The notes beneath the pieces are model-generated. The model saw only the letters and a program-made list of their open reading frames with translations. It searched no databases and was not told the DNA's origin. 64,000 bases of DNA from Anadara kagoshimensis. Taxonomy: Eukaryota > Mollusca > Bivalvia > Arcoida > Arcidae. Positions 5,345-63,045 of this stretch are shown one piece after another. Position 1 is the first letter of the stretch. Every line of letters starts with the position of its first letter. The translations under genes were made by a program, and so were the position numbers. The stretch covers positions 32,359,905 to 32,423,904 of the forward strand of contig CM037870.1 in NCBI GenBank assembly GCA_021292105.1, written 5' to 3'.

Positions 5345-5510
5345 TATACTCTCTCATGCATTTAATTACCCTAAAATGTATTTTGGTACTGTGGGTATTT
5401 TCCAACATCTTGAAAAATCTTTGTTCCAAGCACTACTGATGAGAAATTGTATTCCGAAACGGTCGTCTAGTGCAGTAAAATTAAAACTGACATGAAATGT
5501 AATTTTCAAA
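5345..5510 (+). repeat. Hammerhead-bearing dispersed repeat, copy A
   Basis: One of four related repeats (others at 29731-29918, 54942-55085 and 62930-63045). Upstream of the ribozyme it shares 'tcatgca', 'attttggt', 'gggta..ttt.caacatctt' with copy B; downstream it shares 'gtaaaattaaaact' and a 'tgtaatt' end. Confidence 0.8.
5430..5473 (+). ncRNA. Hammerhead ribozyme motif (type I topology), copy A
   Basis: The core is intact: CTGATGA at 5436-5442, GAAA at 5456-5459 and GTC at 5465-5467. Helix I is gcacta paired with tagtgc. Helix II is GAAAT/ATTCC with a TGT loop and one A.C mismatch. Helix III is only AC/GT around a GGTC loop. Cleavage would fall after C5467. The helix II mismatch may weaken this copy. 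Very short helix III hammerheads are known from Penelope-like elements, retrozymes and Schistosoma/newt repeats; activity here is inferred from pairing only. Confidence 0.82.
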
Positions 5511-5699
5511 AAGTTTAAGCAGGTCATTTCAGAAATAAACTGGGGTCTTGAGTTAGATGTTTAAGAGCTCATATTAAAAAAGATATTGTTTATCAGAATA
5601 ATATACATCACTGGACATTGCTTTTGTCAATAAATCCAGTATTACAACGGCAAACCTCTAATAATGGTTGATACAAATATGTATTTGTCTCTTCATGCC

Positions 5700-5827
5700 T
5701 GCAATCCCTGCACATGGTCCTAAGCACGCTGCAAAGGTAAAAATTTCTGGCACTTCACCTATAGCTGGTGACGTCTCGATGTAAGTGAATATTTTTAACT
5801 GGGAGGTTAAACACCATTACTCAACTC
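5700..5827 (+). mobile_element. tRNA-SINE, 3' fragment
   Basis: Only the 3' half of the SINE family is present: 'ttcacctatagctggtgacg', 'tctcgat.taagtgaatat' and the end 'ttaaacaccattactcaac'. The tRNA-like head is missing. It is closest to the copy at 60299-60630, which shares 'ccctgcacat' and 'ctgcaaaggt'. Confidence 0.85.
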
Positions 5828-5934
5828 TATTCTCATATTTTTATTTAGAAATTTTCTGACTTATCTTTAAATTTTAAATGCAATATAGTCAGGATAGTAC
5901 TATTACAATGTCCTTCTAAAGTCTGTTAATCAAA

Positions 5935-6165
5935 AACAAACATACTAATCCATGTCCGAATCACAATCCAGAAGCAAAGTAAAAACTTTGGAGCTGACAA
6001 GTAAGCTTAGACACGTGAACTTCCAACTGGGAAGTGAGATCGGGTGCTCCGGAAGGGTAAGCACCTCCTGTTTAGCTAGCTACACCCGCCACGTGTTAAA
6101 TCAAAATTGTGTGAAAGGAACATGGAACTATGAGACGTCAAATATATCCAGGGCAATCCTATGTT
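5935..6165 (-). mobile_element. Penelope-like element, 3' end fragment
   Basis: Read on the minus strand this matches the 3' end of the Penelope-like remnant at 40880-42370: 'ggatatatttgacgtc', 'catgttcctttc', 'acacgtggcgggtgtagcta', the hairpin-capable 'aggtgcttacccttccggag', and the tail 'tggacatg'. 'ggtgct...agcacc' can form a 6-bp stem. Only noncoding tail and the last codons remain. Confidence 0.75.
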
Positions 6166-6590
6166 GGTATATAATACAATATTGTCCATTGTTTCTTCTT
6201 TTTGTCGGTTCAGCCACTGGCAAATACACTCCTTTCACCTTCAATATCCTGATATTCTATCTTTAGACACTGAAGGGTTTTTTTTATTTTTGTCACATGG
6301 TTGTAATTTTACAAAACGCCTACAGAGTCAGAATTAAAACATATTTATAGGGCACTCACGAAAAAAAAGATATTACTGGATTAATTATATGAATAATTGG
6401 TCGGATTCTTAACTTAATAAGTTCATAATATTGACATGATGCCAAGAGTTATGAAGCGTTATAACAATATTGATGCTGGAAGACAACTCTAATTAACAAA
6501 TATATATATTAAGCATCGTCAATGTTAGTTTTAAATAATAATTAGCAAAAGACTGGAGAAAATAACGGAGATATTAGTATTTGGCTTCAT
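6165..6590. other. No recognised feature
   Basis: AT-rich spacer between two oppositely oriented Penelope-like 3' ends (5935-6165 minus, 6593 onward plus). Nothing further is supported. Confidence 0.5.
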
Positions 6591-6592
6591 TA

Positions 6593-6715
6593 GGTGCTTA
6601 CCCTTCGGGAGCACCCGATCCCAGCTCTCTGATGGAAGTTTACGTGTCTAACTAAGATTTGTCAGTTTTTATTGTGCTTTCAGTTTGTGATTTGGACACG
6701 GATTGGTGTGTTTGT
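6593..6715 (+). mobile_element. Penelope-like element, 3' end fragment leading into a satellite
   Basis: Contains 'aggtgcttacccttcgggag', 'tggaagtttacgtgtctaa' and 'gtgatttggacac', the same 3' noncoding tail as at 42185-42360. The sequence then runs without a break into the 49-bp satellite, whose unit is the last about 49 bp of this tail. Confidence 0.75.
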
Positions 6716-7990
6716 TTTTACTTTGCTTTGAGATTGTGATTTAGACATGGGTTTTTATGTTTGTTTTTACTTTGCTTTGAGATTGTGATTTAGACATGGA
6801 GTTTTATGTTTGATTTTACTTTGCTTTCAGATTGTGATTTAGACATGGAGTTTTATGTTTGATTTTACTTTGCTTTCAGATTGTGATTTAGACATGGGTT
6901 TTTATGTTTGTTTTTACTTTGCTTTGAGATTGTGATTTAGACATGGGTTTTTATGTTTGTTTTTACTTTGCTTTGAGATTGTGATTTAGACATGGAGTTT
7001 TTATGTTTGATTTTACTTTGCTTTGAGATTGTGATTTAGACATAGAGTTTTATGTTTGATTTTACTTTGCTTTCAGATTGTGATTTAGACATGGGTTTTT
7101 ATGTTTGTTTTTACTTTGCTTTGAGATTGTGATTTAGACATGGAGTTTTATGTTTGATTTTACTTTGCTTTCAGATTGTGATTTAGACATGGGTTTTTAT
7201 GTTTGTTTTTACTTTGCTTTGAGATTGTGATTTAGACATGGAGTTTTATGTTTGATTTTACTTTGCTTTCAGATTGTGATTTAGACATGGGTATTTATGT
7301 TTGTTTTTACTTTGCTTTGAGATTGTGATTTAGACATGGACTTTTATGTTTGATTTTACTTTGCTTTCAGATTGTGATTTAGACATGGGTTTTTATGTTT
7401 GTTTTTACTTTGCTTTGAGATTGTGATTTAGACATGGAGTTTTATGTTTGATTTTACTTTGCTTTGAGATTGTGATTTAGACATGGGTTTTTATGTTTGT
7501 TTTTACTTTGCTTTGAGATTGTGGTTTAGACATGGAGTTTTATGTTTGATTTTACTTTGCTTTGAGATTGTGATTTAGACATGGGTTTTTATGTTTGTTT
7601 TTACTTTGCTTTGAGATTGTGATTTAGACATGGAGTTTTATGTTTGATTTTACTTTCCTTTGCGATTGTGATTTAGACATGGACTTTTATGTTTGTTTTT
7701 ACTTTGCTTTGGGATTGTGATTTGGTCATGGATTGGTTTGTTTGTTTTTTACTGTGTTTTGGGATTGTGATTTGGACATGGATTGGTATGTTTGCTTTTT
7801 ACTTGTATGTTTGTTTTAACTTTGCTTTGGGATTGTGATTTGGACATGGATTTGTATGTTTGTTTTTATTTTGCTTTGGGATTGAAATTTGGACGTGGAT
7901 TGGTATGTTTGTTTTTAGTTTTTAGTTTTGTTTTAAAAATGTAATTTGGACATGGATTGGGATGGTGTTTTTATTTTGAATAAAACCTAC
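6690..7990 (+). repeat. 49-bp satellite with a two-unit higher-order pattern, about 26 units
   Basis: The 49-bp unit runs 'gtttgtttttactttgcttt', 'gagattgtgatttagacatg', then 'ggtttttat'. Two variants alternate over much of 6900-7640: one with 'tgggttttt/tgtttttac' and one with 'tggagtttt/tgattttac', giving a 98-bp higher-order period. Central units are nearly identical; edge units (6620-6710 and 7690-7990) are diverged and look like the Penelope tail. This fits array growth from the middle by unequal exchange. Confidence 0.93.
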
Positions 7991-8029
7991 TACTTGTTAG
8001 GAATACAGGGGTGCCCACTTTTTACCATG

Positions 8030-8613
8030 CGAATGAACTCTGAGTATCCCGGCAAGAAAATGTCTCCAATTTTACGACAATCTCCGTAGTAGAAACGTTT
8101 CTAATACCAAAAAAACAATAAAAGGAATATAATCCATTAATAGATTTAAGTATTGGTATAAAAAACATCTTTAATATGTATTAATAGAAAAAATTGAACA
8201 AAAAATTTTCATTGTTAAACGTACTAAGCAATACAGCATACAAACATACCTTAATGGTGTAAATTGTTATGAGAAACATTTGACGTGAAACAATATTATA
8301 ACAACACCTTAACGTAGACAGTTTATCCAATTGAATGTTGAAAAATGTTAATTTAAATTCAACTTAATGCGAATATTTTGAAAACATACTAATGTTAGTT
8401 TTTATATGACGACCAACTCCTCGGAAATAGGACGTAAATTTTGTTTCAACAAAAATGCCAAATCTTTGCCGATGAAACTCCCAGTATATGACGCGATGCT
8501 GTGTACGTTTTAAAAAAATGATAATTCTCTTGATAATAATATTGTAATGATGTATGGTGGAGGTATTATGTGCAAATTTACATTCGTAGACGTAGATTAA
8601 ATCTTAAAAAGAT

Positions 8614-8662
<49 letters not shown>

Positions 8663-9685
8663 TAGTATACACAAAGAATGAATTTCCCCCATTCATTCTC
8701 ACGAATGAAAACGACAAAAAGAGCGGTCTTACCGTAAAGCTTGTACAATGCATCATTGACCTTGACCCATTCTTGTCATTTCAATAAAAGAATAAAGTTG
8801 ATAAACACATTTCTTATATTAAAATAGATGAGAAAGAAATTGAGAACAATACCGGCTGATGATAATCACGACAGAAAAGACGTCATCGGCTTTGTAAACC
8901 AGTATAGCCTTAACTACAGTATAAACAGGATTGTGAAAGAATGGATTATCTTTGAACAAAAACCTTCAAAGGGATAAAGCAGTTTCAGCTTTTTTTAACT
9001 CAGAATAGTTCTTATTTCTTTTATATAGGTCTTCAAGTGGCTTATATTACTTTTTGTGTTTTATATGAATTTAACAGTGGCTTATATAAAGTTTTTTTTT
9101 TAAATGTAATTTTTATTTTTATTATTTTTTATTAATGATTTAAAAAAAATAATAATAGTAATCCAGTTAAAACGTAATGTAATGTTTTGAGATTTACAAG
9201 TACAGTAAGTTCTCAAGATAACAGAATTATAAGTACCTCTGACCATTTTAGAGATTTCTTTTAAAAAAACAAAAACAAATTAATAGCAGGTACTTAGCAA
9301 AAGTGAGTAAATCAAACCATGACAAAACAGGACATCATGTCAAAGTGTTGAAAATTCAAAAACAAATTAATATTACTATCTTCAAATATTATAGAAAAAT
9401 AAAACTTTATTATTTCTTTTATGTCTTAATTAGCTCGATAAATCTGCTCAGCATGTGTTTATTTTGTCTGCTGAAGTAAAACCTGGATTATTTGTCAAGT
9501 TACCAGTTTTAATTATCTAAAATATAAAAAATTGACAATTTTTCTCTTCTGACGACCACATTCGTAAAAAAAACTACATTTTAAAATTATTTCAGAAACT
9601 GTACTGTAATAATTGAATCTTTCAGGAACGTTATCAAAGACGAGGGAACGCTCTCATTCTTCATAGCTTGATATATTAGATCATA
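8030..9685. repeat. 1.6-kb tandem duplication, copy D1
   Basis: Homologous along most of its length to 9690-11100. Shared landmarks, in order: 'gtagaaacgttt(c)', 'gaaacatttgacgtgaaa', 'acgtagattaaatctta', 'tcaataaaagaat', 'gttgataaacacatttctta', and 'taatcacgac.gaaaagacgtc'. The part at about 9390-9685 is also repeated at 13860-14200. No coding function is recognised. D1 lacks two insertions found in D2, so it serves as the empty-site reference. Confidence 0.75.
8618..8660 (+). repeat. (TA)n microsatellite
   Basis: About 21 TA dinucleotides inside duplication copy D1; the corresponding place in D2 (near 10515) has no such array. Confidence 0.97.
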
Positions 9686-9877
9686 AAGAGTTGAATAATG
9701 GTGTCATTTTTACCTTTGAAGACAACACCCGGAGTAGAAACGTTTCCAACACGAATGAAAGGAACATAATCAATAAATAAATAAAAGTAATGATAAAAAC
9801 GAAACATATTGTAAGAAGCTTTCATTGTCAGAAAGGTACTAAACAATAAAACATACAAAATGTCTTACTGTTGTAAA

Positions 9878-10171
9878 TTAATTTTCAACACAACGTTGGC
9901 AATGCCAAATTGAAGTTCACAATTGGAAATGATATGACGTCAACAATAGAATATGATGTCAGACGCGATTGAAGTCATATAACATCATTGGTTATTTGTA
10001 GATTATAATCTCAATAGTCAACATTTTCCATTTTTGTTTCCTTTTCAAAAAATTTGAGTATCTCTTAGTATTTTAACCAAGAGTTGTCAATTCCATTGAA
10101 AGGACATATGTGTCCATATGGCAGGCTGTCGGTAGAGTACACATATGTCTGTTTGGCAGCAAGAGGGTTAA
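9878..10171. mobile_element. TTAA-flanked insertion in D2 (piggyBac-like target site?)
   Basis: About 290 bp present in D2 and absent from D1, where 'taaattgttatgagaaac' reads straight through. TTAA occurs at both junctions (9878-9881 and 10168-10171). The right end, read inward on the minus strand, is 'ccctcttgctgcc', reminiscent of piggyBac-type ends. The left end does not match it well, so the class is uncertain. An internal partial palindrome ('ggacatatgtgtcc' and 'acacatatgtct') lies near the right end. Confidence 0.45.
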
Positions 10172-10673
10172 GAAACATTTGACGTGAAAAAGCAAGACCA
10201 TTACAACATGTATTGCTACATGTAGTTTATCTCTTCTAATGCTTAAAAATCACATATTATTACTATCTAAATTGGAAAAAAAACATTTCGTGACCCACTT
10301 TTATAAGATATAAAGACATAAATTCTTTTTCGACAAAATAATAATAAAAAAAATTGTAAGTCCCAATTTATGACGTATTGTTGTATACGTTTTTGGAAAT
10401 GACAACTCGCTTAATAGAAGGTTTTTTAACAATGCACCGTTTTGGCAGAACGTAAACAAATGATTCAAAAGAAGGTTTACAAGAAAATCTTGTCGACGTC
10501 GATTAAATCTTAAAACAGAATATCACTTAGCTTAAGACTGAGTTTTCACCCACCATTTATATTCATGAATAATCACATCTTGCCGTAAAACCTTTCAATG
10601 CAACCCTGACCTAGACCCTTCCTTGTCATATCAATAAAAGAATTCAGTTGATAAACACATTTCTTAGATAATG

Positions 10674-10899
10674 TATAGGCAAACAACACTGACCTGTCCG
10701 CTTGACCTTTCATAAGGAATATTCATATGCAAGGGTAGCGTTAGGATTTTCAGTTAATGCATATACACATTGCCCATGATTAGTGTTCACATCATATAGA
10801 CGAAATATACAGGCGTGATCCCTATTACTTAAATAAACTCGTTTATAATGAATATTTAAATCAAAAGTCAAGCGGACAGTTCAATGTTTTTTACCTATA
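10674..10899. mobile_element. MITE, N family, copy N1 (inserted in D2)
   Basis: About 226 bp with long terminal inverted repeats. The left begins 'tataggcaaacaacactgac' and continues 'ctgtccgcttgacctttcat'; the right ends with the inverse, 'caagcggacagttcaatg' and 'ttacctata'. Duplication copy D1 lacks it at the matching place ('tttcttatattaaaatagat'). Related copies are N2-N6. Confidence 0.85.
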
Positions 10900-11099
10900 A
10901 TAGACGAGGAAGTATTTGACAACAATACCGACTGATAATAATCACGACACAAAAGACGTCAGTGGCTATGTATATCACTACAGCCTGAAGTGCATGAAGA
11001 ATGGTTCATGTTAAAAAAAATTCAAAGAATTAAAGCTGTTTCAGTTTTTTTTTTCAAACTCGAAATAGTTCGTGTTTTATATCAGATCAGCTTTCTTGT

Positions 11100-12338
11100 G
11101 AGTTAGAAATAATTTTAAAATACATTTTAAACAAGGGTTGAGATTTATTGAATAGATTTGCAAGGCAAGACCATGTACCGTTTGAGAATTTTTAAGTTTT
11201 CAGTTTTTTGCATTTACATGATAAAAGTCGGTAAAACGCACCATGATAAAACGAATGGAACACGACACAGCATTAACTATTTTGGCACCACAACTCCTAA
11301 CTATAGACGGATATTACCCAAAGTGACAAGATTGTTCGTCTGGTTTAGGTATTAATAAATCTGTACCAACTGATTTTTCAAAATTTGTTTTAAAACATCG
11401 AATACAGTGGAATAGTGTCTGTGCAATATCAATTTTGATATGTTATTATGCAACTGCTTACCTTTTTAAAACAGCCAATCAGAGAAAAGAGGTTCATATA
11501 AAGAAAAGTAATAAAATTGTAAATATTGCAAAATATACAAAGTTATCATAAAGTTTGCTGTTTGCAAGTGGTATAATTTTGTACATTATGTAATAATATG
11601 CAGTGATGTGAGTGTTATAGACAATGATCTCTTTTTTCTTATATGGTTCTAGTTATGTAATGTCAATTCTCTTCCTATGGCCGAGTGTTCAGTTACAAAC
11701 AGCACTTAAATAGATTCTAAGGAATCACGCTTTGTATGGTGTAAATATATTCATTGTTATATTTCTTTAAGGTGTTAATGCATTCATTGTTTTATTACCA
11801 AAGACAAATTACTGTAACAACAACGTGTTATATGAGATAATGTTTATCATTATTAGAATTTTCAGAAGATTGAACTATTGAAATCATTATTTAACAATAA
11901 ATCACTTTACACATCCTCAAACACCTCCACATTTAATTCTGATATTTGTTATTTATATTATTTGAATGTTTTCAGCGTATTTAACAAAAATAATTTTTTA
12001 GGTTTCTTAAGGAAATACTGTTTATTACTCATGTGGATTTTTTTAATTTTAAAGCAATAAACGCGTTCGAAAATTATCTTCCACGCACCAAAAAAAAATA
12101 CAAGTATAATAATACGATTCTAATTGTGGCAAGCACAATAAGTCCAGTCTCCCGACTCCCCCGTATTTACCTATTTCCATGGTAACGACGGTCATGTTGG
12201 AAATTTTAATTGCACATCTACATTGTTGATACATTTTTGCTATAAAGTTTCATTGAGATTGAGTGAGGCATTTCTGAGAAAAAAGGGTGGACAACGGGCG
12301 GAAAGTGGAATATTATTAAGAAGAAACGGAACAAGGGC
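11100..12338. other. No recognised feature
   Basis: AT-rich sequence; a few open frames of 60-65 codons have no recognisable protein features. The region leads into a tRNA-like SINE head at 12340. Confidence 0.5.
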
Positions 12339-12339
12339 A

Positions 12340-12446
12340 ATGAGCTTACTCCCAACTTTCAAGACTTGGGTCAGACCAGGTCTGGGTTCGAACCCACGAC
12401 CTCCCACATATGGAAAGAACACTCTACCACTGAGCTACAGTAGTGG
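12340..12446 (-). mobile_element. tRNA-SINE head, solo
   Basis: On the minus strand this starts 'ccactactgtagctcagtgg', with an A-box-like 'tagctcagtggtagagtg' and a perfect B box 'ggttcgaaccc' (12384-12395). It is followed by the family's 'gacccaagtcttgaaagt'. The rest of the SINE body and the conserved tail are not recognisable beyond it. It is a SINE head, not a working tRNA gene: no acceptor-stem complement closes it. Confidence 0.8.
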
Positions 12447-12569
12447 TGACAATCAGAAGGACGAACAACAACAAACCATATAGTGGCCTCAATGATAGGA
12501 GATTAATATAAACAAATGTTACAAATTATTTCATAGTAAATAAGCTATTAAATCTATATCTTACCTATC

Positions 12570-12989
12570 TACAGTGCAGGCCTGTTGAAAGTATAACACT
12601 AAGCTAACAGATTAGTGTTGAATAGACCGTTCAACTCGATCCCTTGTTAGCTATATCTCGACAGCTTTTCGAAAGCTACAATCCACAGTACAGGCCTTTC
12701 AAAAGTTTAACACTAAGCTAACGAAAAGGAGTCAAAACTCAGCTCGAGATATGGATAGCTTACCGCCAAAAACCTACCGGAAGATAGATAGCATCTGCCG
12801 AGAGCTGTCAAGATATAGCTAACAAGGGGCCAGAATAAGCTGTAGATTCTGTAAGCTCAGTGTTAAACTTTGGACAGGTCTGTACCATAACTCTGATCCA
12901 CTAGCTGTCTCTATATCGTCCAATCGGTAGCCGAGCTTTCGGCTCCTTTTATTAGCGAAATGTTTAACCTTCGACATTTCTGCACTGTA
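12570..12989. mobile_element. MITE, M family, outer element split by another copy
   Basis: The left end 'cagtgcaggcctgttgaaag' starts at about 12572 and the right end, 'acatttctgcactgta', lies at about 12974-12989. Between them sits a second full-length copy (12686-12888). The outer halves rejoin into a normal about 217-bp element when the inner one is removed. Confidence 0.75.
12686..12888. mobile_element. MITE, M family, inner nested copy
   Basis: Runs from 'cagtacaggcctttcaaaag' to 'ggacaggtctgtac', about 200 bp, with near-complementary ends containing 'taacactaagctaacgaaaa' and 'gtaagctcagtgttaaact'. It lies inside another member of the same family. Confidence 0.75.
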
Positions 12990-13858: not shown

Positions 13859-13859
13859 T

Positions 13860-21469: not shown

Positions 21470-22070
21470 TCAAACGTTTGTCAGCAAAATTTGATAATTC
21501 AAATGATTATTACCGAAGTCTGAATTATTTAAATGATTGTCACCAAAGTCTGAATTTTTCAAATGATTGTCACCAAAGTCTGAATTATTCAAATGATTGA
21601 CACCAAAGTCTGAATCATTCAAATGTTTGTCACCAACGTCGGAATTAATAAAATGTTTGCCAACAAACTTTGATGTATTAAAATGTTTGTCAACAACGTC
21701 CGATGTATCGAAATGTTTGTCAAAAAAGTCTTATGTATTCAAATGTTTGTCAAAAAGTCTGATGTATTTAAATGTTTGTCAACAAAGTCTAATGTATTCA
21801 AATGTTTTTCAAAAAAGTATGTAGTATTCAAAAGTTTGTCACCAACGTCTCAATTCTTCAAATGTTTGCCAACAAAGTTATATGTATCCAAATGTTTGTC
21901 AACAAGGTCCGGTGTATTCAAATGTTTGTCTACAAATTATGATGTAATCAAATGTTTGTCAACAACGTCTGATGTATTCAAATGTTAGTCACCAAAGTCT
22001 GAAATTTTTAAATGTTTGTTACCAAAGTTGGATTTATTAAAATGTTTGCCAACAAAGTCTGGTGTAGAAA
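21470..22070 (+). repeat. 30-bp minisatellite, unit 1, about 20 copies
   Basis: The consensus is 'ttcaaatgtttgtcaacaaa' followed by 'gtctgatgta'. The period of 30 keeps reading frames open (10-residue repeats such as KCLSTTSDVF), so the roughly 100-codon frames are an artefact. The same array has about 15 copies in unit 2 and about 4-5 in unit 3. Confidence 0.95.
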
Positions 22071-29730: not shown

Positions 29731-29918
29731 CATACTCCCTCATGCAAAGCATTTCCTTAGCTTAATTTGGTAAAATATATTTTGGTCCTTTGGGTAGCTT
29801 TTCAACATCTTCAAAATAATTTTGGTTTCATGATTTTGGTCCAAGCACTACTGATGAGGAATTGTATTCCGAAACGGCCGTCTAGTGCTGTAAAATTAAA
29901 ATGGGTATAATATGTAAT
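29731..29918 (+). mobile_element. Hammerhead-bearing repeat, copy B (insertion in unit 2)
   Basis: About 185 bp present in unit 2 only. Unit 1 (about 21010-21030, 'tttcttacatttatttacta') and unit 3 (about 37455-37480) read straight through the site. The insert carries 'tttggtcctttgggtagctt', 'caacatcttcaaaata', a complete hammerhead, and the end 'gggtataatatgtaa'. It has no open frame, so it would depend on enzymes supplied elsewhere, as retrozymes do. Confidence 0.75.
29845..29888 (+). ncRNA. Hammerhead ribozyme motif (type I), copy B, intact
   Basis: Core CTGATGA 29851-29857, GAAA 29871-29874 and GTC 29880-29882. Helix I is gcacta/tagtgc (extendable by one A-T pair). Helix II is GGAAT/ATTCC with a TGT loop, all paired. 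Helix III is AC/GT with a GGCC loop. Predicted cleavage after C29882. Together with copy D this is the best candidate for an active ribozyme. Confidence 0.9.
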
Positions 29919-30008
29919 TTATTTACTATTTTGGAACATATTGTCATTGTATTTTATGTGTGTGGTATAAGCTTTTTGTAGCTTATTGCAAATATAGTTG
30001 TCATTATT

Positions 30009-30344: not shown

Positions 30345-30805
30345 AAGCATTCAAATTATTTATCCAAAAATGCAAATGCTAGTCAGCAAATTCTGATGTA
30401 TTCAAATGTTTGCCAACAAAGTCTGAAGTATTCAAATTATTGTCAACAAATTAAAGTTTGAATTATTCAAATGTTTGTCAACAAAATCTGAATTATTCAA
30501 ATGTTTATCAACAAAGTTTGATGTATTCAAATGATACTCATCAAAGTCTTAATTATTTCAATATTTGTCACCAACGTCTGAATTGTTCAAATGTTTGCCA
30601 ACAAAGTTAGATGCATTCAAATGTTTTTCAACAACACCTGATGTATTCAAATAGTAGTCAACAATGTCTGCAATGTTTGGTGTATTCAAATGTTTGTCAA
30701 CAAAGTCTAGTGCATTCAATTGTTTACCAATATAGTCCGAATTATTCAAATGTTTGCCAGCAAAGTTAGATGTATTTGAATGCCTGTCAACAAAGTCTGG
30801 TGTAG
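30345..30805 (+). repeat. 30-bp minisatellite, unit 2, about 15 copies
   Basis: Same 30-bp unit as at 21470-22070 ('caaatgtttgtcaacaaagt' core), more diverged and with a few 24-28 bp units. A 109-codon minus-strand frame across it is a repeat artefact. Confidence 0.93.
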
Positions 30806-37914: not shown

Positions 37915-38045
37915 ATTCTGATGTATTCAAATGATTGTCAACAAAGTCAAAAGTATCCAAACGTTTGTCAATAAGTTTGATGTAGCCAAATGTTTGTCTA
38001 CAAAGTATGGTGTATTCAAATTGTTTGTCAACAAAGTGTGACACG
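37915..38045 (+). repeat. 30-bp minisatellite, unit 3, about 4-5 copies
   Basis: The same unit as in units 1 and 2, reduced to about four recognisable copies. Confidence 0.85.
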
Positions 38046-42845: not shown

Positions 42846-43660
42846 TCAAATGATGTAATTTATCATAATCAATAATAAAATAGAGATCGAATACAGTAAC
42901 ACAATAACTGGACCCTCTTGACATTTAACATTTGGTGATACATTATTTGTAGTAAACAAGAACATTAATTGAGTTAGATAGATCAGGATGATGCCAGGAA
43001 TAACAAAGCCAATAAGCCACAACCAGGGAGTTTTAAGTACACGATCATCTAGATGTCTTCTGGTTAAATACTCGTCTCTGGAGAACATGTCATTTTCAAT
43101 TGTTATTGACCTATTTGTTGTTAGCAGATCTAGATACCAGACATGACTTGGGACAGGAATAATAATGATGATCTTACAGTCAAACCACTTTACTCCGGAA
43201 TTCTTCAGACAACGTTAACATTTCTTGCCTAAAAGAGTTGCGTTGAGTAATGATGTTTAACGTCCGAGTCATGGATATTTCACTTATATCGAAACGTCGC
43301 CAGCTATAGGCGAAATGCTGAAATTTTGCTTGTGCGTTGCGTTGATGGCACTATAAAGCAGGGTTCTTTACCATACCAAGCTCACCGTGACACGGGACCT
43401 CGTTTATATTAATTTCCCATCCGGAAGAACTTTTATTCGTAATGGCGAGTGCTTGGCGAAAGAACAGTCACTACCCACTTTCAAGTCTTGGGTCAGACCC
43501 GGTCGGGTTTCGAACCCACAACCTCCCACTTACGGAGCGAGCACTCTACCACTGAGCTACCGCAGTGGTTTGCCTAAACGGGTTTAGCAGCAATACCGTT
43601 GTCGTCGTTGTCGTCAATGTTCTTGATTTTGGTTTTAAACATCAATACAAATAAGTAATA
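42846..43660 (-). pseudogene. Multipass membrane protein 5' fragment (phospholipid-phosphatase-like?), best-preserved frame
   Basis: The frame is open on the minus strand from 43214 to 42846, about 122 codons. It shows a hydrophobic segment (KIIIIIPVPSHVWYL), a loop with FSRDEYLTRRHLDD, a second segment (WLWLIGFVIPGIILIYL) and a third (VIVLLYSISILLLIM). Order and loop fit the N-terminal third of phospholipid phosphatases (polar tail, TM1, F-x-x-DE loop, TM2, cytosolic loop, TM3), but the catalytic C1-C3 motifs would lie beyond this fragment. That assignment is inference. The upstream polar segment (TKIKNIDDNDDN, 43590-43640) is separated by a SINE, and a TAG lies between. The frame closes without a clear donor site. 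Confidence 0.45.
43235..43568 (-). mobile_element. tRNA-SINE, full length, with target-site duplication
   Basis: The head on the minus strand is 'ccactgcggtagctcagtgg', with A box and B box 'ggttcgaaac'-like (one change), then 'gacccaagacttgaaagtgg'. The 3' domain is 'cgcctatagctggcgacgtt' with 'tcgatataagtgaaatat', ending at 'ttaaacatcattactcaac'. Flanked by a 9-bp repeat, ttgcctaaa, at 43225-43233 and 43570-43578. Units 1 and 2 lack it. Confidence 0.92.
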
Positions 43661-52323: not shown

Positions 52324-52649
52324 TACCACTGCGGTGGCTCAGTTGGTAGAGTGCTCGCTCCGTAAGTGGGAGGTCGTAGGTTCGAACCTAAGATTTGAAA
52401 GTGGGTAGAGACTGTTTTTCGCCAAGCACTTGACATTACGAAATGAAAGTCACTGTTCTTTCGGATGGGAACTTAAAATAAACGAGGTCCCGTGTCACGG
52501 TAGCCGTGGAATGATAGAGAACCATGCTGTATAATGCCATCAGCGCAACACACAGGCAAAATTTCTGCACCTTCGCCTATAGCTGGCGACGTCTCGATAT
52601 AAGTGAAATATTCTTGACTTGGGCATTAAACACCATTACTCATCTCAAC
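52324..52649 (+). mobile_element. tRNA-SINE, full length, 13-bp target-site duplication
   Basis: Head 'ccactgcggtggctcagttg' with A box; B box 'ggttcgaacct' at about 52379-52389. The 3' domain is 'cgcctatagctggcgacgtc' and 'tcgatataagtgaaatattc', ending 'ttaaacaccattactcatct'. Perfect 13-bp flanks tcgtatatggaat at 52311-52323 and 52650-52662. This is the reference copy for the family. Confidence 0.95.
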
Positions 52650-54580: not shown

Positions 54581-54584
54581 TTTA

Positions 54585-54940
54585 AAAAATGAAGAAGAAG
54601 CAATCTGTAAACCAAGTCTTCTGATTACAAGTCTTCGTTGAAAAATTATATATACGACAAAATACGCACAACTAAGTTCACGTCACCCATCAACTTGTCA
54701 ATGTTGTCTATCACTTAAATCAGACATTGTCTCTGTGAGAGCCTAGACTTTAATAAAATACTTACAATGCATCGCTAAGTAACAATGTGTGAAGTTAAAC
54801 ACTAGCACTGCAAAGATTAAATTGTGCCTATACAAGCTTAATAAAGGTGTCTAATAAAATAAAGTAGTGAAGAATATAAAAACTAAACGGGGTATAATAT
54901 AAATCTTTGTTCATTGTTTTCATTATGCCATAATCACATA
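54585..54940. other. No recognised feature
   Basis: AT-rich spacer between a SINE and hammerhead repeat C. Confidence 0.45.
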
Positions 54941-54941
54941 T

Positions 54942-55085
54942 TATACCAGTGTTAATTTTACAGCACTAGACGGCCGTTTCGGAATACTATTCCTCATTAG
55001 TAGTGCTTGGACCAAAATTGTGAAACCAAAATATTTTACTAAGATGTTGAAAAGATACCCAAAAGGACCAAAATAAAATATGGAT
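54942..55085 (-). repeat. Hammerhead-bearing dispersed repeat, copy C
   Basis: Minus-strand copy sharing with B 'ttttggtcc.ttttgggta', 'cttttcaacatctt', 'attttggtttca', then the ribozyme and 'ctgtaaaattaacactggta' 'taatatgt'. It lacks B's leading 'ctccctcatgca' portion. Confidence 0.85.
54963..55006 (-). ncRNA. Hammerhead ribozyme motif, copy C, core mutated
   Basis: Same 44-nt fold as copy B (helix I gcacta/tagtgc; helix II GGAAT/ATTCC with AGT loop; GAAA; GTC), but the core reads CTAATGA in place of CTGATGA. Position G5 is essential in hammerheads, so this copy is predicted to be inactive. Confidence 0.85.
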
Positions 55086-55794: not shown

Positions 55795-55843
55795 TTAGAT
55801 ATAAAACTGAGTGAATGACTTTCAATGTCCTTATCCCGACTTA

Positions 55844-56190
55844 ACTCTGCGGTAGTTCAGTTGATAGAGTGCTCATTTTTTAAGTCGGAGGCCGTGGGTT
55901 CTAATCCCGACTGAGTCTGACCCAAGACTTGACAGTTGGTAATGACTGTTCTTTCGCCAAGCACCCGGCATTATGAAATGAAAGCTATGGTTCTTTTGAA
56001 TGTGAACTTAAAATAAAGGAGGCCCCGTGTCACTGTAGGCTCGGAACGATAACGAACCATGTTGTATAATGTCATCAGCGCAAAGCACAGGCAAAATTTC
56101 CGCACCTTCACCTTTAGCTTGCAACGCCTCGATATAAGTAAAATATTCTTGACTGGGACGTAAAACGCGATTACTCTCTAAACTCTCATC
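55844..56190 (+). mobile_element. tRNA-SINE, full length, diverged
   Basis: Head 'ctctgcggtagttcagttga' with 'tagagtgctc', B box 'gggttctaatccc', body 'gacccaagacttgacagttg', 3' domain 'cacctttagcttgcaacgcc' and 'tcgatataagtaaaatattc'. Possible imperfect flanks near 'cttatc'. Confidence 0.9.
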
Positions 56191-56264
56191 TCTTATCGCA
56201 ACAAATGACAAGTGTTACGTTTTTACAAACAATAGCTTTGATTTCATAATGCCGCAACGTTATA

Positions 56265-56510
56265 TTTCCATTTTGCCTGCCCTTTGCTGCTGTTTTGGCT
56301 GTGTTCCAGTGAGTTCATCCGGTGACGTTTCTTTTCCGTTGTTCTCCTCCATGTGGACTTAGGTCTTCCTCTTTTTCTTTTCCTCTCTGGTTGCCACACT
56401 AGTTCTGTCTTGCTCTTTCCTCAGTTTGTGTCCAAACCAGTTCCATTTTCTACTTCTGGTCTCACAGCTTACGTTGTTAAGTCCAGCTTTTTTCCGATAT
56501 GTATCCATTT
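56265..56510 (-). pseudogene. LINE C-terminal remnant, copy 1
   Basis: On the minus strand, RKWNWFGHKLRKEQ (WNWFGH at 56445-56428) and, in a shifted frame, RKRGRPKSTWRRTTE. This pairing of a W-x-W-x-GH-x-LR motif with a 'GRP-x-x-TWRR' motif is characteristic of the C-terminus of many invertebrate non-LTR retrotransposon RT proteins. Frameshifts break it. The clade cannot be named from this fragment. Confidence 0.72.
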
Positions 56511-56549
56511 GAGACTTTTTGTTGCCATCTTATCCTTAATAATAATATC

Positions 56550-56602
56550 CTTCGTTAATCCATTAGCTTTGTGTTAAACATTCGACAGGCCTGCACTGTA
56601 CA
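56550..56602. mobile_element. MITE, M family, right end only
   Basis: 'ttagctttgtgttaaacatt' followed by 'cgacaggcctgcactgta' matches the right end of the family. The left part is not recognisable; the LINE remnant lies where it should be. Confidence 0.7.
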
Positions 56603-56859
56603 TACTCTGATTAGAAAGGGACAAACAAAAGGTCAATGGGCCTGAAATCTCGTGCATCTGTGAACATCTGTGGTATTAAACCATTATGGTTAAACCATTA
56701 TAGACAATTTGAAAGTCAAGGTATATCATTTGATAATACTGGTACTTCATGTAATGATGCTCTAAATGACGATGGTTTGTACTGGGTTTTTTTAAAATAT
56801 TTTCAAGGAAGTAATGTGTTTAAAGGTTTTGCTTCTTAAGGTCACTGATGATTGTGTGG

Positions 56860-57885
56860 CAAGGTCAACTAGGTTCGCAAAATTGGCAGAGTTTTATGCA
56901 GTGATGCTATATATGATGCATCAAGTTCTGCGCCTTTTTGACAAGACGTTTAAAGGTTTTTTGCAAATTCAACACAACGTCTGATGAAAAATTAAAAGTT
57001 GGTGAAAACGAAAAAGCAAGTAGACAAATTTACATACTTAGGCGCAGTAGTAAGCACGGAAGATACAACACAGAAAGACATAAAGAACAGACTATCCAAA
57101 GCAAGAACTGCATTCCACAAATCACAACCTATATGGAGATAAAAAATACAGCAGAAAGACCAAAGTCAAACTCTTTAACAGCAATGTTAAATCAGTATAG
57201 TTGTATGGAAGTGAATGCTGGAGGGTTACCAAAGCAGATATGAGATCTCTATCTAGTTTCCATCATAGTTGTTTGCGTCAAATCTGTAAAATATTCTGGC
57301 CGAACACCATATAAAATTCAAACTTACTGAAAATGACAGATTCAAAATGTATCATTGACGAGATCACTCAAAGAAGGTTTAGATGGTTTGGGCATGTTTT
57401 TAGAATGGAGGGGAAATGCATAACCAAAGAAGCATTAAGATGGACACCCCAAGGGTGGCCCACCTCGCGGAAGGCCAAAAACAACATGGCGACGGACTGT
57501 AGAAAGTCAACTGAAAGATCTGCAACTGACTTGGGGAGAGGCTGAGACAAAGGCAAAGAACAGATCTGAATGGCGAAATCTTGTATTGACCCTATGCTCC
57601 ACCTGGAGCGAAGAGGATAGGTAGTGCCCTTGAATGTGGTTCCAAAACAAACAGGTTTGCAAACTTGGCAGAATTTTATACAATGATGCTATATATGATG
57701 CATCAAAGTTCTGAGCCTTTTTGATAAGAAGATGTTTAAAGGTTTTTGCAAATTCTGGTTACTATGACTTTGAATGTAGGTCAAGAACATCCAGCATCGC
57801 AATATTGGTAGAGTTATATGCAGTGAGGCTATATATGAAGCATCAAACGTCTGAGCATTTTGACAAGAAGATTATCTTTTATGTT
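56860..57885 (+). repeat. About 125-bp tandem repeat, three copies, split by a LINE
   Basis: Copies at about 56868-56967, 57655-57752 and 57790-57885 share 'attggcagagttttatgcag', 'tgatgctatatatgatgcat', 'tttttgacaaga' and 'tttaaaggtttttgcaaatt'. The LINE remnant sits between copies 1 and 2. Confidence 0.8.
56985..57650 (+). pseudogene. LINE (non-LTR retrotransposon) C-terminal remnant, copy 2
   Basis: A more complete remnant. Motifs in order, across frames: FTYLGAVVSTEDTTQKDIKN (about 57025), LYGSECW (about 57205), RRFRWFGHVFRMEGK (about 57372-57416), ALRWTPQG, a broken GRP-TWRR segment (about 57465-57500) and a final WSEEDR followed by TAG at 57622-57624. This is the usual tail of a LINE RT protein. 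The 5' end is truncated near 56985, as expected for LINE insertions. Several frameshifts are present. Confidence 0.85.
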
Positions 57886-57977
57886 ATGCTACTTCCGGTC
57901 ACCAAGTGCATTTTACAAATTGCAAACTTGAGTATTTCTCTCAAATGATATAAGATATTGAGGCTAGCAAAAAACTA

Positions 57978-58454
57978 CTGTAGGAACCATTCTGTTTGTG
58001 ACAGTGAAATACTAGTCAGAACCATAGAAAATCAAATAAATTTGAATAAAGTTTGATATTTTTCATTTACTTGTACCTAGTCGTAACAGGATATCTCTAT
58101 GCGCATCCGCGATTTCATAAAGTATGTCTGTAGAAAGGAAAATGTTGGCGGTATGGGGATTTTACACATGCGAAAATGACGAAATTTACATCGGAGGTGA
58201 TGTCCTTGGTGACGTTTTACGTCATATGCGCAACAGAATCCGCCATTTACCTGGTTTTTCAACATGTTAAATCCCCATTACGTCAACATTTTACCCTGTG
58301 CAGATATATTCTGGGTTAGTCGCGGATGCGCATACAGATTTCCTGTTACGACTAGGTACATGTAAGTGAAAAATATCAAATTTTATTTAAATTTATTTGA
58401 TTTTTTATGGATTTGACGAGTATTTCACTGTCACAGTCACAGTGGTTCCTACAG
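57978..58454. mobile_element. MITE, T family, copy 2 (about 477 bp, 140-bp TIRs, TA flanks)
   Basis: Begins 'ctgtaggaaccattctgttt' after TA (57976-57977) and ends with the inverse, 'tggttcctacag', before TA (58455-58456). Both arms contain 'acaggat.tc..tatgcgcat' against its inverse and 'cttgtacctagtcgtaacag' against 'ctgttacgactaggtacatg'. The centre has a second inverted pair, 'ggggatttaac'-like. No open frame. Confidence 0.9.
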
Positions 58455-58508
58455 TAATTTTAATTCGTTTGACCACCGATGGCTTTCCTTGCAATTAAAC
58501 AGAAAGTA

Positions 58509-59008
58509 CAGTACAGGTCTGTCGAAACTCAACTAACGAATCGATGTCGAATCTCGGTCCCTGGTTACCTTTTCGGTTGCTTTCGGCGGCATCTCGATCA
58601 ATAGTTTGGAAGAGTCCTCGTTCCGTGAATGGAAGGTCGTGGGTAAGATCCCCTGCCGGGTCTGACCCAAAATTGGAAAATTGGTAGTGACTGTTATATC
58701 GCCAAGCACTCGGCATTACGAAATGAAAGTCACGGTTCCCTCGGATGGGAGCTTAAAATAAACGAGGTACCGTGTCACGGTGGGCTTGGCACGCCAAAGA
58801 ACCCTGCTGTATAATGCCATCACCGCAACACACAGGCATTTCTGTACCTTCGCCTATAGCTAGCGACGTCTCGATATAAGTTAAATATTCTTGACTGGAA
58901 CGTTAAACACCGTTACTCAACTCGATCACTAGCTATCCATATCTTGGTCACTCAGGAGCTAAGCCTCGACAACTTATGGTTAGCTCAGTGTCTGACAGGT
59001 CTGTACTG
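58509..59008. mobile_element. MITE, M family, with TA flanks, interrupted by a SINE
   Basis: Left 'cagtacaggtctgtcgaaac' follows TA (58507-58508); right 'tctgacaggtctgtactg' precedes TA (59009-59010). Removing the SINE (58601-58928 including one flank) leaves an element of about 175 bp, like its relatives. Confidence 0.88.
58601..58920 (+). mobile_element. tRNA-SINE nested in a MITE, 8-bp target-site duplication
   Basis: Flanks ctcgatca at 58593-58600 and 58921-58928 are identical. The head is shortened at its 5' end ('atagtttggaagagtcctcg'), the B box is degraded, and the 3' domain is intact ('cgcctatagctagcgacgtc', 'tcgatataagttaaatattc'). Confidence 0.9.
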
Positions 59009-59009
59009 T

Positions 59010-59395
59010 AGCTAAAACAAACGAATTCTGATAACGGAAAAAAACTGTTAAAGGAAGGAACACAGTCTTGAACTTGTTTTTATTCCGGTAAATACATAAA
59101 AATGAAAAAAACCTATGCTTTCACATTACTATAAATTGCAATTTGTGTTTGTCAGTTGTTTATAAGAGTTATCTTTCATTAGATGGACAGAACTACATCC
59201 GCAACTCGGAATTCCTCTATGGCACGCCAATTCTATAAAAATTTGAGAAACTATGGTTTCTCGCCGGGAAACGTAGTAACCCGAACAAATTTCATTTTGT
59301 CAAATTAGGCGAGAATCAAATCATGATCGGGAAACGTTTGGTAATGTTTAGAGATATCGTCATGACATACCAAGATATTCTTTAATAGCAAGACA
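59010..59395. other. No recognised feature
   Basis: AT-rich spacer, nothing supported. Confidence 0.45.
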
Positions 59396-59397
59396 AT

Positions 59398-59456
<59 letters not shown>

Positions 59457-59457
59457 T
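59396..59457 (+). repeat. (ATTT)n microsatellite
   Basis: About 15 perfect tetranucleotide units. Confidence 0.97.
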
Positions 59458-59633
59458 CGGTAGAGTATATAGTTAATAATGCACTAATGTTCTTTGGGAC
59501 AAGACCTTTCCAAAGCGGATACTATAATGTAAAAACACCATAACATGCTGTATGCAAAAAAATACGTGAAAGGAACGATAACTCTTGTGAGATTTCAGAT
59601 ATGAATTCAGAGTTAATAAGTTTTAAGTAACTA

Positions 59634-59634
<1 letters not shown>

Positions 59635-59672
<38 letters not shown>
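59635..59672 (+). repeat. (TG)n microsatellite
   Basis: About 19 perfect TG units. Confidence 0.97.
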
Positions 59673-59674
<2 letters not shown>

Positions 59675-59689
59675 CTTTCCTTTTGTATG

Positions 59690-60110
59690 AAAAATTTACA
59701 TGATTATGGTGCATTTGTTTCAAAATCAATACGCTATAGTAGAGCTTGTTCCTAATATGGGGACTTTTATGATACAATGAAGCAAGCTGCTTTAAAATTG
59801 TTGAATCTCGGATATTTCAAGGCCTCAAAAACATTTATAGCCATCATCACAATATTGTTGATAAGCATGATGTCTATATATCCAAAATTATCTTGGATAT
59901 ATTTATGTTCCATGTTCATTTTACTCTCGATTTTGACTGACACGTGGTGGATATGGCTAGTTAAGTAGGAGGTGCCCTTCTTGAGCACCCGGTCTCACTT
60001 CCTTGGTGGAAAGTAATGTGTTTAACTTAATTCGCCAATTTCAAAGTTTTTACTTTACTTTCTGGATTATGATTTAGACATGGATGTTTATATGTTCGTA
60101 TTGAAATTTG
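59690..60110 (+). pseudogene. Penelope-like RT, extreme C-terminus plus 3' tail
   Basis: A frame reading FVSKSIRYSRACS (about 59715-59755) is the segment after the FLCSN-PAY motif in Penelope-like RTs. Then 'ttgttgaatctcggatattt' and 'tcttggatatatttatgttc' align with 42010-42165. The 3' tail follows: 'cacgtggtggatatggctag', 'aggaggtgcccttcttgagc', 'acccggtctcacttcc' and the 'gtttttactttactttctgg' end. Stops and frameshifts are present. Confidence 0.8.
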
Positions 60111-60298
60111 ATTAAGATACAATTTTGCATTGATAAATACATTTTTAGATAATAGAAGGGTCATTTATCGAGTAATACACTCAATTTTCGAATCCGCAAA
60201 GCAACACATTGATAATGACTATAACAACATCACAGTCAATTAGTATCGGCATATTTATGCAGTCTCTACTAATTACAGTAACCATGAATGACTGCGCT

Positions 60299-60630
60299 AC
60301 CACTATGGAAGCTCAGTGGTAGAGTGCTCGCATCGTATGTGGGAGGTCCTGGGTTCGAACCACGACCGGGTCTCACTAAGACTTGAAAATAGGTAGTGAC
60401 TGATATTTCGCCAATCAATCAGCATTTAGAAATGAAAGTCACGGGGTTTTTCGGAATAGACCTTAAAAACCGATGTCCCGTGTCACGGCAGGCGTGGACC
60501 CTCCCTGCACATTGCCTTCAGCGCACTGCAAAGGTCAAAATTTCTGTCACTTCACCTATAGCTGGTGTCGTCTCGATATGAGTGAAATATTCTTAACTTG
60601 GATTAAAACCTCATTCAATCAATTTATCAA
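60299..60630 (+). mobile_element. tRNA-SINE, full length
   Basis: Head 'ccactatggaagctcagtgg' with 'tagagtgctcg', perfect B box 'gggttcgaacc' (60350-60360), body 'gtctcactaagacttgaaaa', 3' domain 'cacctatagctggtgtcgtc' and 'tcgatatgagtgaaatattc'. Its 'gcacattgccttcagcgcac' middle matches the fragment at 5700-5827, so these two may form a subfamily. Confidence 0.93.
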
Positions 60631-60749
60631 TGTTTTAAAATTAAAACTCTCCCTGTTTTGTGAAATTGATGTCATTAAGCCTTTGAAAAAACTCAAACTT
60701 GTTCCTTCACGTTATCATTTTAACCTAACGGTTCTATTTATGAGACGGC

Positions 60750-60820
<71 letters not shown>
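60750..60820 (+). repeat. (TTGA)n microsatellite
   Basis: About 17 tetranucleotide units, then a short piece resembling the SINE 3' domain ('aatatttcacttataccgag' 'acgcca', minus strand). This suggests that TTGA/ATTG arrays in this genome can start from SINE tails. Confidence 0.9.
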
Positions 60821-60979
60821 CAGTTATGCAAGAATATTTCACTTATACCGAGACGCCACCAGGTACAGTTGTTTTACAAAAAACTCTAATGGATCATTAA
60901 AGACCAGCTAGGCCAAAACAGACCATGAGGATATTTCAAGTTAAAGTATTTTTGGTTTTAAAATCCAATGACGTTATTT

Positions 60980-61138
60980 AAGAAATAACATTCTATTTGA
61001 GTGTATTCATTCGGTATTATGAATGAGAGTCAGGAATAGCATATTCAATGAACTGCGAAGCAGTTCATGTTAAATATGCTATTCCTGACTCTCATTCATA
61101 ATACCGAATGAATACACTCAAATAGAATGTTATTTCTT
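60980..61138. repeat. Perfect long hairpin: 66-bp arms with a hairpin loop
   Basis: Arms 60980-61045 and 61073-61138 are exact inverses over 66 bp by my reading. The 27-bp loop itself contains atgaactgc...gcagttcat with a GAA apex. The left arm starts 'aagaaataacattctatttg'. No homologous element is seen elsewhere in the window. It would make a near-continuous stem of about 75 bp in RNA. Confidence 0.93.
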
Positions 61139-61139
61139 A

Positions 61140-61497
61140 TATTTACAATCATAAAAAATATTGATAGCATGTCCGAAATATAAAATTATCGCTACAATAA
61201 TTTATTTCATTTGAAATTCCGACAAACATACGGGATTGATGGAACAGCCTTGCTCCAAATAAGGAAAGTTACGTCGGGGGTAGACTTGGATGCTGACCAA
61301 TCAAAAATGCATGACGTAATAGATGTCATTCTGTGACGTGATCGAATAGTTAAACGTTACGTAATCAGAGGTCATGACCCCACACTGTATTCAAGAGCAA
61401 TTGAATGCCAGTAAAAACAAATAGGTTCATCTAAAGAACTTTGTTATGACAAGGGACGCCGATATACAACAAATATTTAACATATAACACACGTGAA
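61140..61497. other. No recognised feature
   Basis: AT-rich with a few 'gtgacgt/tacgtaa' motifs (61310-61365), nothing firm. Confidence 0.45.
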
Positions 61498-62058
61498 CCA
61501 CTGCGGTAGCTTAGTTAAAAGAGTGCTTGCTGGCTTCGTAAGTGGGAGGTTATGGGTTAGATCCCTGACCGAGTTTGACCCAAGTCTGAAAGTGGGTAGT
61601 GAATGTTCTGTCGCCAAGCAATCGGCATTATGAAATGAAATTAAAGTCAGGGTACTTTCGGATGGGAACTTGAAATAAACGAGGTCCCGTGTCACGATAG
61701 GCTTGGCACGATAAAGAACCCTACTGTATAATGCCATCAACGCAACTCGCAAACAAATTTTCTGCGCCTTCGCCTATAGCTGACGACGTACGATATAAGT
61801 GAAATATTCTTGATAGGGATGTTAAACACTATTATTCGACTCAACTCTCGAATCGCAGGCAAATTTTCTGCACCTTCACTTATACCTGGCGACGTCTCGA
61901 TATATGTGCAATATTCTTGACTGGGATGTTAAACACCATTACTCGACTCAACTCGTAACTCGCTGACAAAATTTCTTCACCTTCGCCTTTACCTGGCGAC
62001 GTCTCGATATAAGTGCACGATATTCTTGACCGAGACTTTAAACACCATTACTCAACTC
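61498..62058 (+). mobile_element. tRNA-SINE with triplicated 3' domain
   Basis: Head 'ccactgcggtagcttagtta', degraded B box, and normal body to about 61846. The last about 104 bp ('cgcctatagctgacgacgta' ... 'ttaaacactattattcgact') are then repeated twice more, at about 61853-61955 and 61958-62058. Each repeat carries the 'cctggcgacgtctcgatata' block and ends '(c)accattactc.actc'. No other SINE here has this. Confidence 0.92.
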
Positions 62059-62059
62059 C

Positions 62060-62478
62060 TACACCACACATTTAACAACAATATTAATAGACATATTTAA
62101 TAAAAGCCCATTTTCATGTTATCATTTCACATTTTTTCTCGTGGCTTTTTTCTGTTATGATAAATAACGATTTTGATTGCATGTGCGTTAGTTTGACCGA
62201 TTTTAGACTTATATGCCATTAGACAATAGACTACTAAATAGCATGCCGATTATATTTGGTATTTATACGAAACGTTAAGCAGGAATTTTCTGTAACAGTG
62301 AGTAAGGAAGTTTCGTAATTGACTCTAACAGCCAAAATAATACGAATAACGTAACAAACAGAATCAAATAAATTATAACTTATACAAATCATGTTGAGTA
62401 AAGTGGCAGATACCGACAGTATTCCCGTCTAAGACATTTATATACAGCCGACACAATTTGATGTTCTTTGATTGCCGT
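62060..62478. other. No recognised feature
   Basis: Unique-looking sequence before a locally GC-rich patch. Confidence 0.45.
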
Positions 62479-62479
62479 C

Positions 62480-62781
62480 TGCCACTGCAATAAACTGTAA
62501 CGGATCATTAGCGACGTGTGATTAGAGCGCGCCCCCGTCGCTCGCTCTGAGAAGGAGGAAAAAGGAATATTGTCTTTATTTTTATAAGATATCTATCAAT
62601 GAAGATCACGCTAATTTCAAGCAGACCTAAAGTAACATACATAAAAAGTGATATTTTATTGTTAACAAGGATTTGAGAATTATTTAATTTTTCTGTTTTA
62701 TTGCCAATTGGAGTCTTCGAATACCAGAAATTCCTTTACAGAAGAATGCATTCCACGTACATCATATTAACAATGGTAAGT
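62480..62781 (+). promoter_or_regulatory. Candidate promoter / 5' exon with ATG at a strong splice donor
   Basis: A short GC- and CpG-rich patch (62510-62545, 'tagagcgcgcccccgtcgct') stands out from AT-rich surroundings. About 230 bases later 'attaacaatg' runs into 'gtaagt' (62776-62781), an ideal donor, so the first exon could end on its start codon. No TATA box or downstream exon was identified. This is a hint only. Confidence 0.25.
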
Positions 62782-62929
62782 TTTTTTATTTTATAAATAA
62801 CTAATTGTTATTGATATTAAACTTTTTTTAATTAGTGAAGGATATAAAATTTGAATTGTTTAATTGGTTATTTAATGATGAATTGTTTTATTGTTTTAAA
62901 CAAATTTAAAAAAAAAATAAAATTAAAAT

Positions 62930-63045
62930 TAAAAAAATGGTTTCACAATTTTGGTCCATGCACTACTGATGAGGAATGGTATTTCGAAACGGCCGTCTAG
63001 CGCTGTACAGTGAAAACTGGTATATTATGTAATTGCAATTTAAAT
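62930..63045 (+). repeat. Hammerhead-bearing dispersed repeat, copy D (5'-truncated)
   Basis: Shares 'ggtttcacaattttggtcca', the ribozyme, and 'aaaactggtatattatgtaa' with copies B and C. The upstream 'gggta...caacatctt' part is absent. A Penelope-like 3' tail begins about 75 bp further on (63120). Confidence 0.85.
62960..63003 (+). ncRNA. Hammerhead ribozyme motif (type I), copy D, core intact
   Basis: CTGATGA 62966-62972, GAAA 62986-62989, GTC 62995-62997. Helix I gcacta/tagcgc has one mismatch. Helix II GGAAT/ATTTC has one G.T pair and a GGT loop. Helix III is AC/GT with a GGCC loop. Cleavage predicted after C62997. Confidence 0.87.

Follow-up and report, generated by a model that had tools for sequence, protein, structure and literature searches.

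Retrozymes of animals are known as abundant RNA circles, and both the route by which they return to the genome and the enzyme that serves it are an open question. According to section 9 of a 2020 review (PMC7761336), retrozyme repeats carry no motif that would reveal their partner enzyme, and Penelope-like elements are suspected as that partner in section 17 of the study that described the metazoan retrozymes lacking long terminal repeats (non-LTR retrozymes; Cervera and de la Pena 2020, PMC7229834). The same study holds that single hammerhead motifs of amphibians cut poorly while dimers cut well, and reverse transcription of PAc, a Penelope-like element of Anolis, starts within the RNA downstream of the hammerhead (PMC11167929). 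Here we describe a hammerhead-bearing repeat of Anadara kagoshimensis, found in a stretch of 64,000 nucleotides (nt) on contig CM037870.1 (GCA_021292105.1, positions 32,359,905-32,423,904 of the forward strand), hereafter the window. A first-pass annotation of the window had marked four 44-nt type I hammerhead segments and placed them in one dispersed family related to retrozymes or Penelope-like elements. We have found that a metazoan non-LTR retrozyme is very probably the source of the four motifs, each of which lies in a truncated copy of it in the genome. The kind is thus already known, and the 339-bp unit described below fits as a new member of it; among open-licence papers we found no report of this unit or of a comparison of arrays of the kind made here.

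All four 44-nt segments are present at the positions where they had been annotated. The repeat itself is longer, as each motif sits in one of the following copies:

Copy A, 5337..5505, plus strand: 5'-truncated retrozyme, about unit positions 140-337 with a worn middle; hammerhead at 5430-5473 with a helix II mismatch.
Copy B, 29732..29921, plus strand: 5'-truncated retrozyme, unit positions 149-338, 97% identical to the unit; hammerhead at 29845-29888.
Copy C, 54932..55073, minus strand: 5'-truncated retrozyme, unit positions 197-336; hammerhead at 54963-55006 with a G5 to A change in the core.
Copy D, 62938..63034, plus strand: 5'-truncated retrozyme, unit positions 240-336; hammerhead at 62960-63003.

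The copies share a 3' end at unit positions 336-338 and have four distinct 5' ends. As had been annotated, the hammerhead core is intact in copies B and D, where cleavage is predicted after C29882 and C62997, respectively, and is altered in copy C, whose ribozyme is expected to be inactive given the change of G5 to A. The helix II mismatch of copy A is an A.C, and the helix II substitution of copy D does keep pairing, as a G.T in the DNA and a G.U in the RNA. Two further details did not survive. A 6-bp helix I had been ascribed to all four copies, and in copy D this helix is broken by an overlooked A.C mismatch (GCACTA/TAGCGC); in copy B, helix I has 7 unbroken pairs adjoining the core. In addition, the proposed 2-bp helix III would close a loop of 2 nt, which is too short for a hairpin; if a tetraloop is allowed, a single pair plus A15.1-U16.1 is left. 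When 131-nt stretches around the motifs were compared with the Rfam family RF00163 (Hammerhead_1), the model covered the motif at full length and at exactly the annotated coordinates in every copy, with 28.1 bits for copy B (E value of 2e-05 for 131 nt), 25.4 for A, 21.7 for D and 20.4 for C.

Alignment of loci fetched from the genome yielded one 339-bp unit with 34.2% guanine plus cytosine (GC). Its coding capacity is negligible, as the longest open stretch in any frame of four joined units is 49 amino acids. To count the family, the 1.115-Gb host genome was searched for the core pattern CTGATGAG-N4..24-CGAAAC-N2..8-GTC with the reversed pattern as control. There are 3558 + 3573 = 7131 occurrences of this pattern versus 6 of the control, and so the hammerhead core is not a product of chance; the 100 of the 7131 places that were checked for family look all resemble this family. 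The exact 32-nt core had no match in viral contigs and none in bacterial and archaeal genomes. Units also stand head to tail and in phase. For example, loci L013 and L015 each hold two units and a piece, and C1:310542-311928 holds five. The exact joint of one unit to the next occurs 546 + 539 = 1085 times in the genome and 0 times in the control. The membership of the four copies in one family, as annotated, is therefore borne out by a single 339-bp unit with thousands of copies and head-to-tail arrays. The window appears dense in copies when set against a genome mean of 6.4 core patterns per Mb (three of the four window copies fit the pattern), a density that is biased by the fact that the finding itself drew attention to this window.

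The ends of the copies point to reverse transcription. The fetched loci gave 90 distinct alignments, of which 61 end at unit positions 330-339, although for 26 of the 90 an end past the cut was forced by a query that itself reached about unit position 332 (25 of the 26 end at 330-339). The 64 unbound alignments include 36 that end at 330-339 and 1 that ends at 296-303, which is where a self-cut linear monomer would end; the rest end elsewhere, many of them being worn pieces. The core pattern alone retrieved 22 alignments, with ends at 330-339 in 16, at 309-326 in 5 and at 301 in 1. If bound and free alignments are pooled and only those that match over 90 nt or more with an identity of 93% or higher are kept, 37 of 40 have their end at 334-339. 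The usual 3' end is thus located about 37 nt beyond the predicted cut at unit position 299, and 5' ends are scattered. An end at this distance past the cut argues against self-cut linear monomers, copied from their 3' ends, as the usual template. None of the 90 alignments starts within 2 nt of the cut, a count from which we draw no inference since fetching nearly precluded single copies of that form and the 15 arrays plus L096-L098 are too few.

Several details were observed at these ends. The first unit of L013, L061 and L096 starts at unit position 288-289, a slight pile-up of 5' ends directly after helix II that was noticed after the fact and that perhaps reflects stops of the reverse transcriptase at the helix II stem. 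Retrozymes in L026 (474-542) and L075 (1463-1617) have different 5' ends and lie at the same site within older antisense retrozymes. Both inserted between GGAAATAC and GCATG with no target base clearly lost, and a T run at the junction can be assigned to either side. A target preference is a possible explanation of this shared site.

The ACGGCCGU strand of helix III is self-complementary, and the hammerhead would probably act as a dimer in which helix III would be stable between two strands. For two copies of the B sequence, RNAcofold predicts a double hammerhead with an 8-bp helix III as the best structure at -34.5 kcal/mol, as compared to 2 x -12.3 kcal/mol for separate strands and -7.8 kcal/mol for the single active fold. 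PMC7229834 gives such an arrangement for amphibians. Hammerhead dimers of newts reportedly go back to Forster in 1988.

Comparison of units within and between arrays was undertaken for 16 arrays, with the unit pairs that overlap by at least 200 nt coming from six of them. Within arrays (34 unit pairs), two units have on average 5.2 substitutions relative to the consensus in common and differ at 3.6 positions, whereas between arrays (460 unit pairs) the corresponding values are 0.65 and 17.9. For the four arrays that have 4-5 units, we counted 25 substitutions common to all units, 27 confined to one unit and 3 found in a subset of units; the last all occur in L096, an array that is truncated by the boundary of the fetched sequence. 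These four arrays look as though each was copied from one template. Variants that are mostly in all units or in one form a star pattern, as expected from one circular RNA that is read repeatedly, while unequal exchange should give many subsets. A star pattern would also be expected from the transcript of an already uniform array or from a burst of DNA amplification.

The last possibility belongs to an alternative in which the family is satellite-like DNA with arrays that expand by unequal exchange or DNA amplification, single copies that are scattered fragments, and a ribozyme that is a passenger. In-phase arrays of up to five units agree with such an origin, as do the three subset substitutions of L096, which resemble the outcome of unequal exchange, and uniform arrays could arise from an amplification burst. 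Yet three of the four long arrays are devoid of subset variants, scattered copies outnumber joints (the 7131 core patterns against the 1085 exact joints), and a common 3' end with free 5' ends is a mark of reverse transcription. We thus regard satellite-like DNA as a very unlikely explanation.

Our best explanation, which we consider probable, is a retrozyme that would use a double hammerhead, an RNA circle and a borrowed reverse transcriptase. The anatomy of the copies suggests how such a cycle would proceed. In transcripts of tandem copies, the self-complementary strand of helix III would allow a double hammerhead to form and to cut after GUC at unit position 299, with the monomer then circularized by a host ligase. 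A reverse transcriptase supplied by another element would begin at an internal site of the RNA near unit position 336, which is 37 nt past the cut, may travel around a circle several times, and would stop at random to leave either single truncated copies or in-phase arrays.

There are a number of observations that weigh against this interpretation. All four Rfam scores are under the RF00163 gathering score of 34, so the covariance-model check proposed in the first-pass annotation gave matches in every copy, each below that threshold. Furthermore, an Rfam scan of the 64-kb window with E values up to 10 listed no hammerhead, nor did a scan at the same setting of two whole loci with intact copies; we infer that larger scans miss these hammerheads as an effect of speed filters. 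The best monomer fold of copy B differs from the active fold, no clean double hammerhead is predicted for the dimers of copies A and D, and one is predicted for the dimer of copy C, whose core is broken. There is no covariation, with 91.9% of cells pairing among 60 distinct rows versus 91.5% in shuffles and with one compensated pair, which is expected for copies that decay without selection. Covariation was consequently dropped as structural support, and the structure rests on sequence, the Rfam match and folding energies. Target-site duplication is not beyond chance, as 3 of 60 insertions, one of them in a 32-bp satellite, score at least 8, which is the 99th percentile of 470 shuffled flank pairs. 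In addition, L096-L098, which are three of the four long arrays, were chosen from among exact joints, a choice that favors young arrays. Finally, seven two-unit copies (L006, L010, L012, L028, L030, L078 and L081) have a partial first unit and units that are unlike each other. At unit positions 256-336 their two units differ at 4.9 positions and have 0.14 variants in common, as compared to differences of 2.5 between separate loci (659 pairs) and 0.12 between units of long arrays. Separately, a comparison of ribozyme conservation with that of the flanks (mean substitution of 2.4% in the 44 nt versus 3.3-3.7% elsewhere, 73 copies) was left unused because it is biased, some of the loci having been retrieved with a pattern in which the core is required.

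The seven two-unit copies were not derived from one circle read twice. Serial insertion, perhaps beside an older copy, or copying from a mixed source array is more likely, and because their units are unlike we have lowered our estimate that an RNA circle is the usual template from reasonably probable to just short of an even chance. The same element could instead be copied as an uncut linear multimer transcribed from a genomic array. The transcript of a mixed array would account for two-unit copies with unlike units, and in vitro the lizard element PAc was copied mainly from unprocessed RNA, with insertion unchanged by ribozyme mutations in the experiments described in the portion of PMC11167929 used here. 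A linear multimer would however need a source array that is already uniform, and the private variants of the four long arrays, with 25 in all units, 27 in one and 3 in subsets, fit repeated reading of one unit. We therefore hold the linear multimer to be a serious contender at about one chance in three.

Involvement of Penelope-type enzymes was addressed by a survey of GIY-YIG matches. The genome is rich in them, with 248 candidates of which 150 were scored, and 35 of these 150 places were retrieved together with about 1.5 kb of flanking sequence. One reading of the window copies is that they are pseudo-LTR pieces of an autonomous Penelope-like element that has a minimal hammerhead and encodes its own reverse transcriptase. 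The abundance of GIY-YIG matches is in line with it, as is the presence in several GIY-YIG groups of a minimal hammerhead-like motif of similar layout just before a fixed 3' end; hammerheads that lack a stable helix III have also been described for the Penelope-like kind (PMC7761336, in part). Against this, a head-to-tail unit of 339 bp with no open frame above 49 amino acids does not code for a reverse transcriptase or a GIY-YIG nuclease, the five GIY-YIG groups with 3' ends in view (the L034, L033, L049, L036 and L093 types; the end of the L091 type is outside the view) end in other sequences, and the retrozyme matches in L035, L046, L049 and L093 are separate insertions or short pieces. An autonomous Penelope-like element is consequently highly improbable. 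Of the two kinds proposed in the first-pass annotation, the unit fits the retrozyme and not the Penelope-like element.

A partner that is recognizable by a common tail was likewise sought by searching 30 + 5 GIY-YIG loci for the unit and by inspecting the tails of 17 of the 30 plus the 5 by eye, with none found to have the retrozyme tail. That the supplying enzyme is of the Penelope type is suggested by analogy and has, in our estimate, somewhat less than an even chance. We tentatively propose, at somewhat more than one chance in three, that rolling-circle reverse transcription left the uniform long arrays as its fossils, with one circle read repeatedly in each, and that a specific reverse transcriptase, perhaps of the Penelope type, binds or is primed at the fixed start that lies 37 nt beyond the cut. 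If true, RNA circles would be a genuine template of animal retrozymes and the partner enzyme would be traceable by its start site. Both the common 3' end past the cut and the sharing of variants within arrays bear on how retrozymes return to the genome, and both can be counted wherever a genome harbors retrozymes.

The Penelope-type GIY-YIG loci L034, L040, L033, L039, L049, L036 and L037 have minimal hammerhead-like motifs of the form CTGAAGA...GAAAGCGCTA or CTGATGACGGCAGCC...GAAACATGTC. These motifs lie near the 3' ends of the loci, several of which end at TA repeats. In L091 and L092 the GIY-YIG domain is seemingly upstream of the reverse transcriptase in one long frame, and we take these two to be a permuted Penelope-like element with a presumably Penelope-type reverse transcriptase.

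Other features of the window were also noted. At 61007-61101 on the minus strand there is a near-perfect foldback that resembles Rfam mir-335 at 38.4 bits (gathering score 64); it is less likely to be a microRNA than a small foldback transposon. Three similar tRNA-like matches at 43500-43562 (minus strand), 52335-52391 (plus) and 55850-55913 (plus), one of them above its gathering score, look like a tRNA-derived short interspersed nuclear element. Tandem arrays of a similar unit of about 30 bp (CAAATG...TTGTCA...CAAAGT) occupy 21470-22061, 30373-30804 and 37919-38041, and a 49-bp tandem repeat with 23 copies and strong strand skew extends over 6665-7804.

The host of the element is a bivalve mollusc, and the element resembles mussel repeats as these have been described. 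What is directly established here comprises the unit, the tandem arrays in which it occurs, its copy number, the common 3' end and the scattered 5' ends. Among known systems, PAc-type Penelope-like elements (Frangieh 2024, PMC11167929, in part) are alike in that their reverse transcription has a fixed internal start downstream of a hammerhead, and in 5' truncation, tandem copies and AT-rich sites. They differ in that they encode a reverse transcriptase and a GIY-YIG nuclease while the Anadara unit is non-coding, and this unit has no tail in common with the five GIY-YIG groups of its own genome whose ends are in view. The satellite hammerheads of newt and axolotl (HHR_Amex1), as far as they are covered in the parts of PMC7229834 used here, are alike in a helix III of one pair with a palindromic tetraloop as its cap, in a dimer that is predicted to be necessary, and in a unit of about 330 bp. 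Host and sequence are different, and contacts between loops 1 and 2 are a feature of the amphibian motifs. The Anadara motif has a palindromic CGGCCG in a helix III without a stable stem, which the same source gives for amphibians and not for most invertebrates.

The closest description is that of the retrozymes of the mussel Mytilus galloprovincialis (PMC7229834, in part), for which circles and cleavage have been demonstrated, while in Anadara they are predicted from the genomic copies. The mussel hammerhead motif, like that of Anadara, is without most of the usual nucleotides of helix I/II loop contacts. Both elements have a type I hammerhead in a low-GC, non-coding unit within the range of 150-450 bp, and both occur as dimers to multimers together with scattered copies in a genome that also contains Penelope-type genes. 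Unit length and copy number are likewise comparable, with 350-390 bp and about 5000 motifs in the mussel versus 339 bp and the 7131 core patterns in Anadara.

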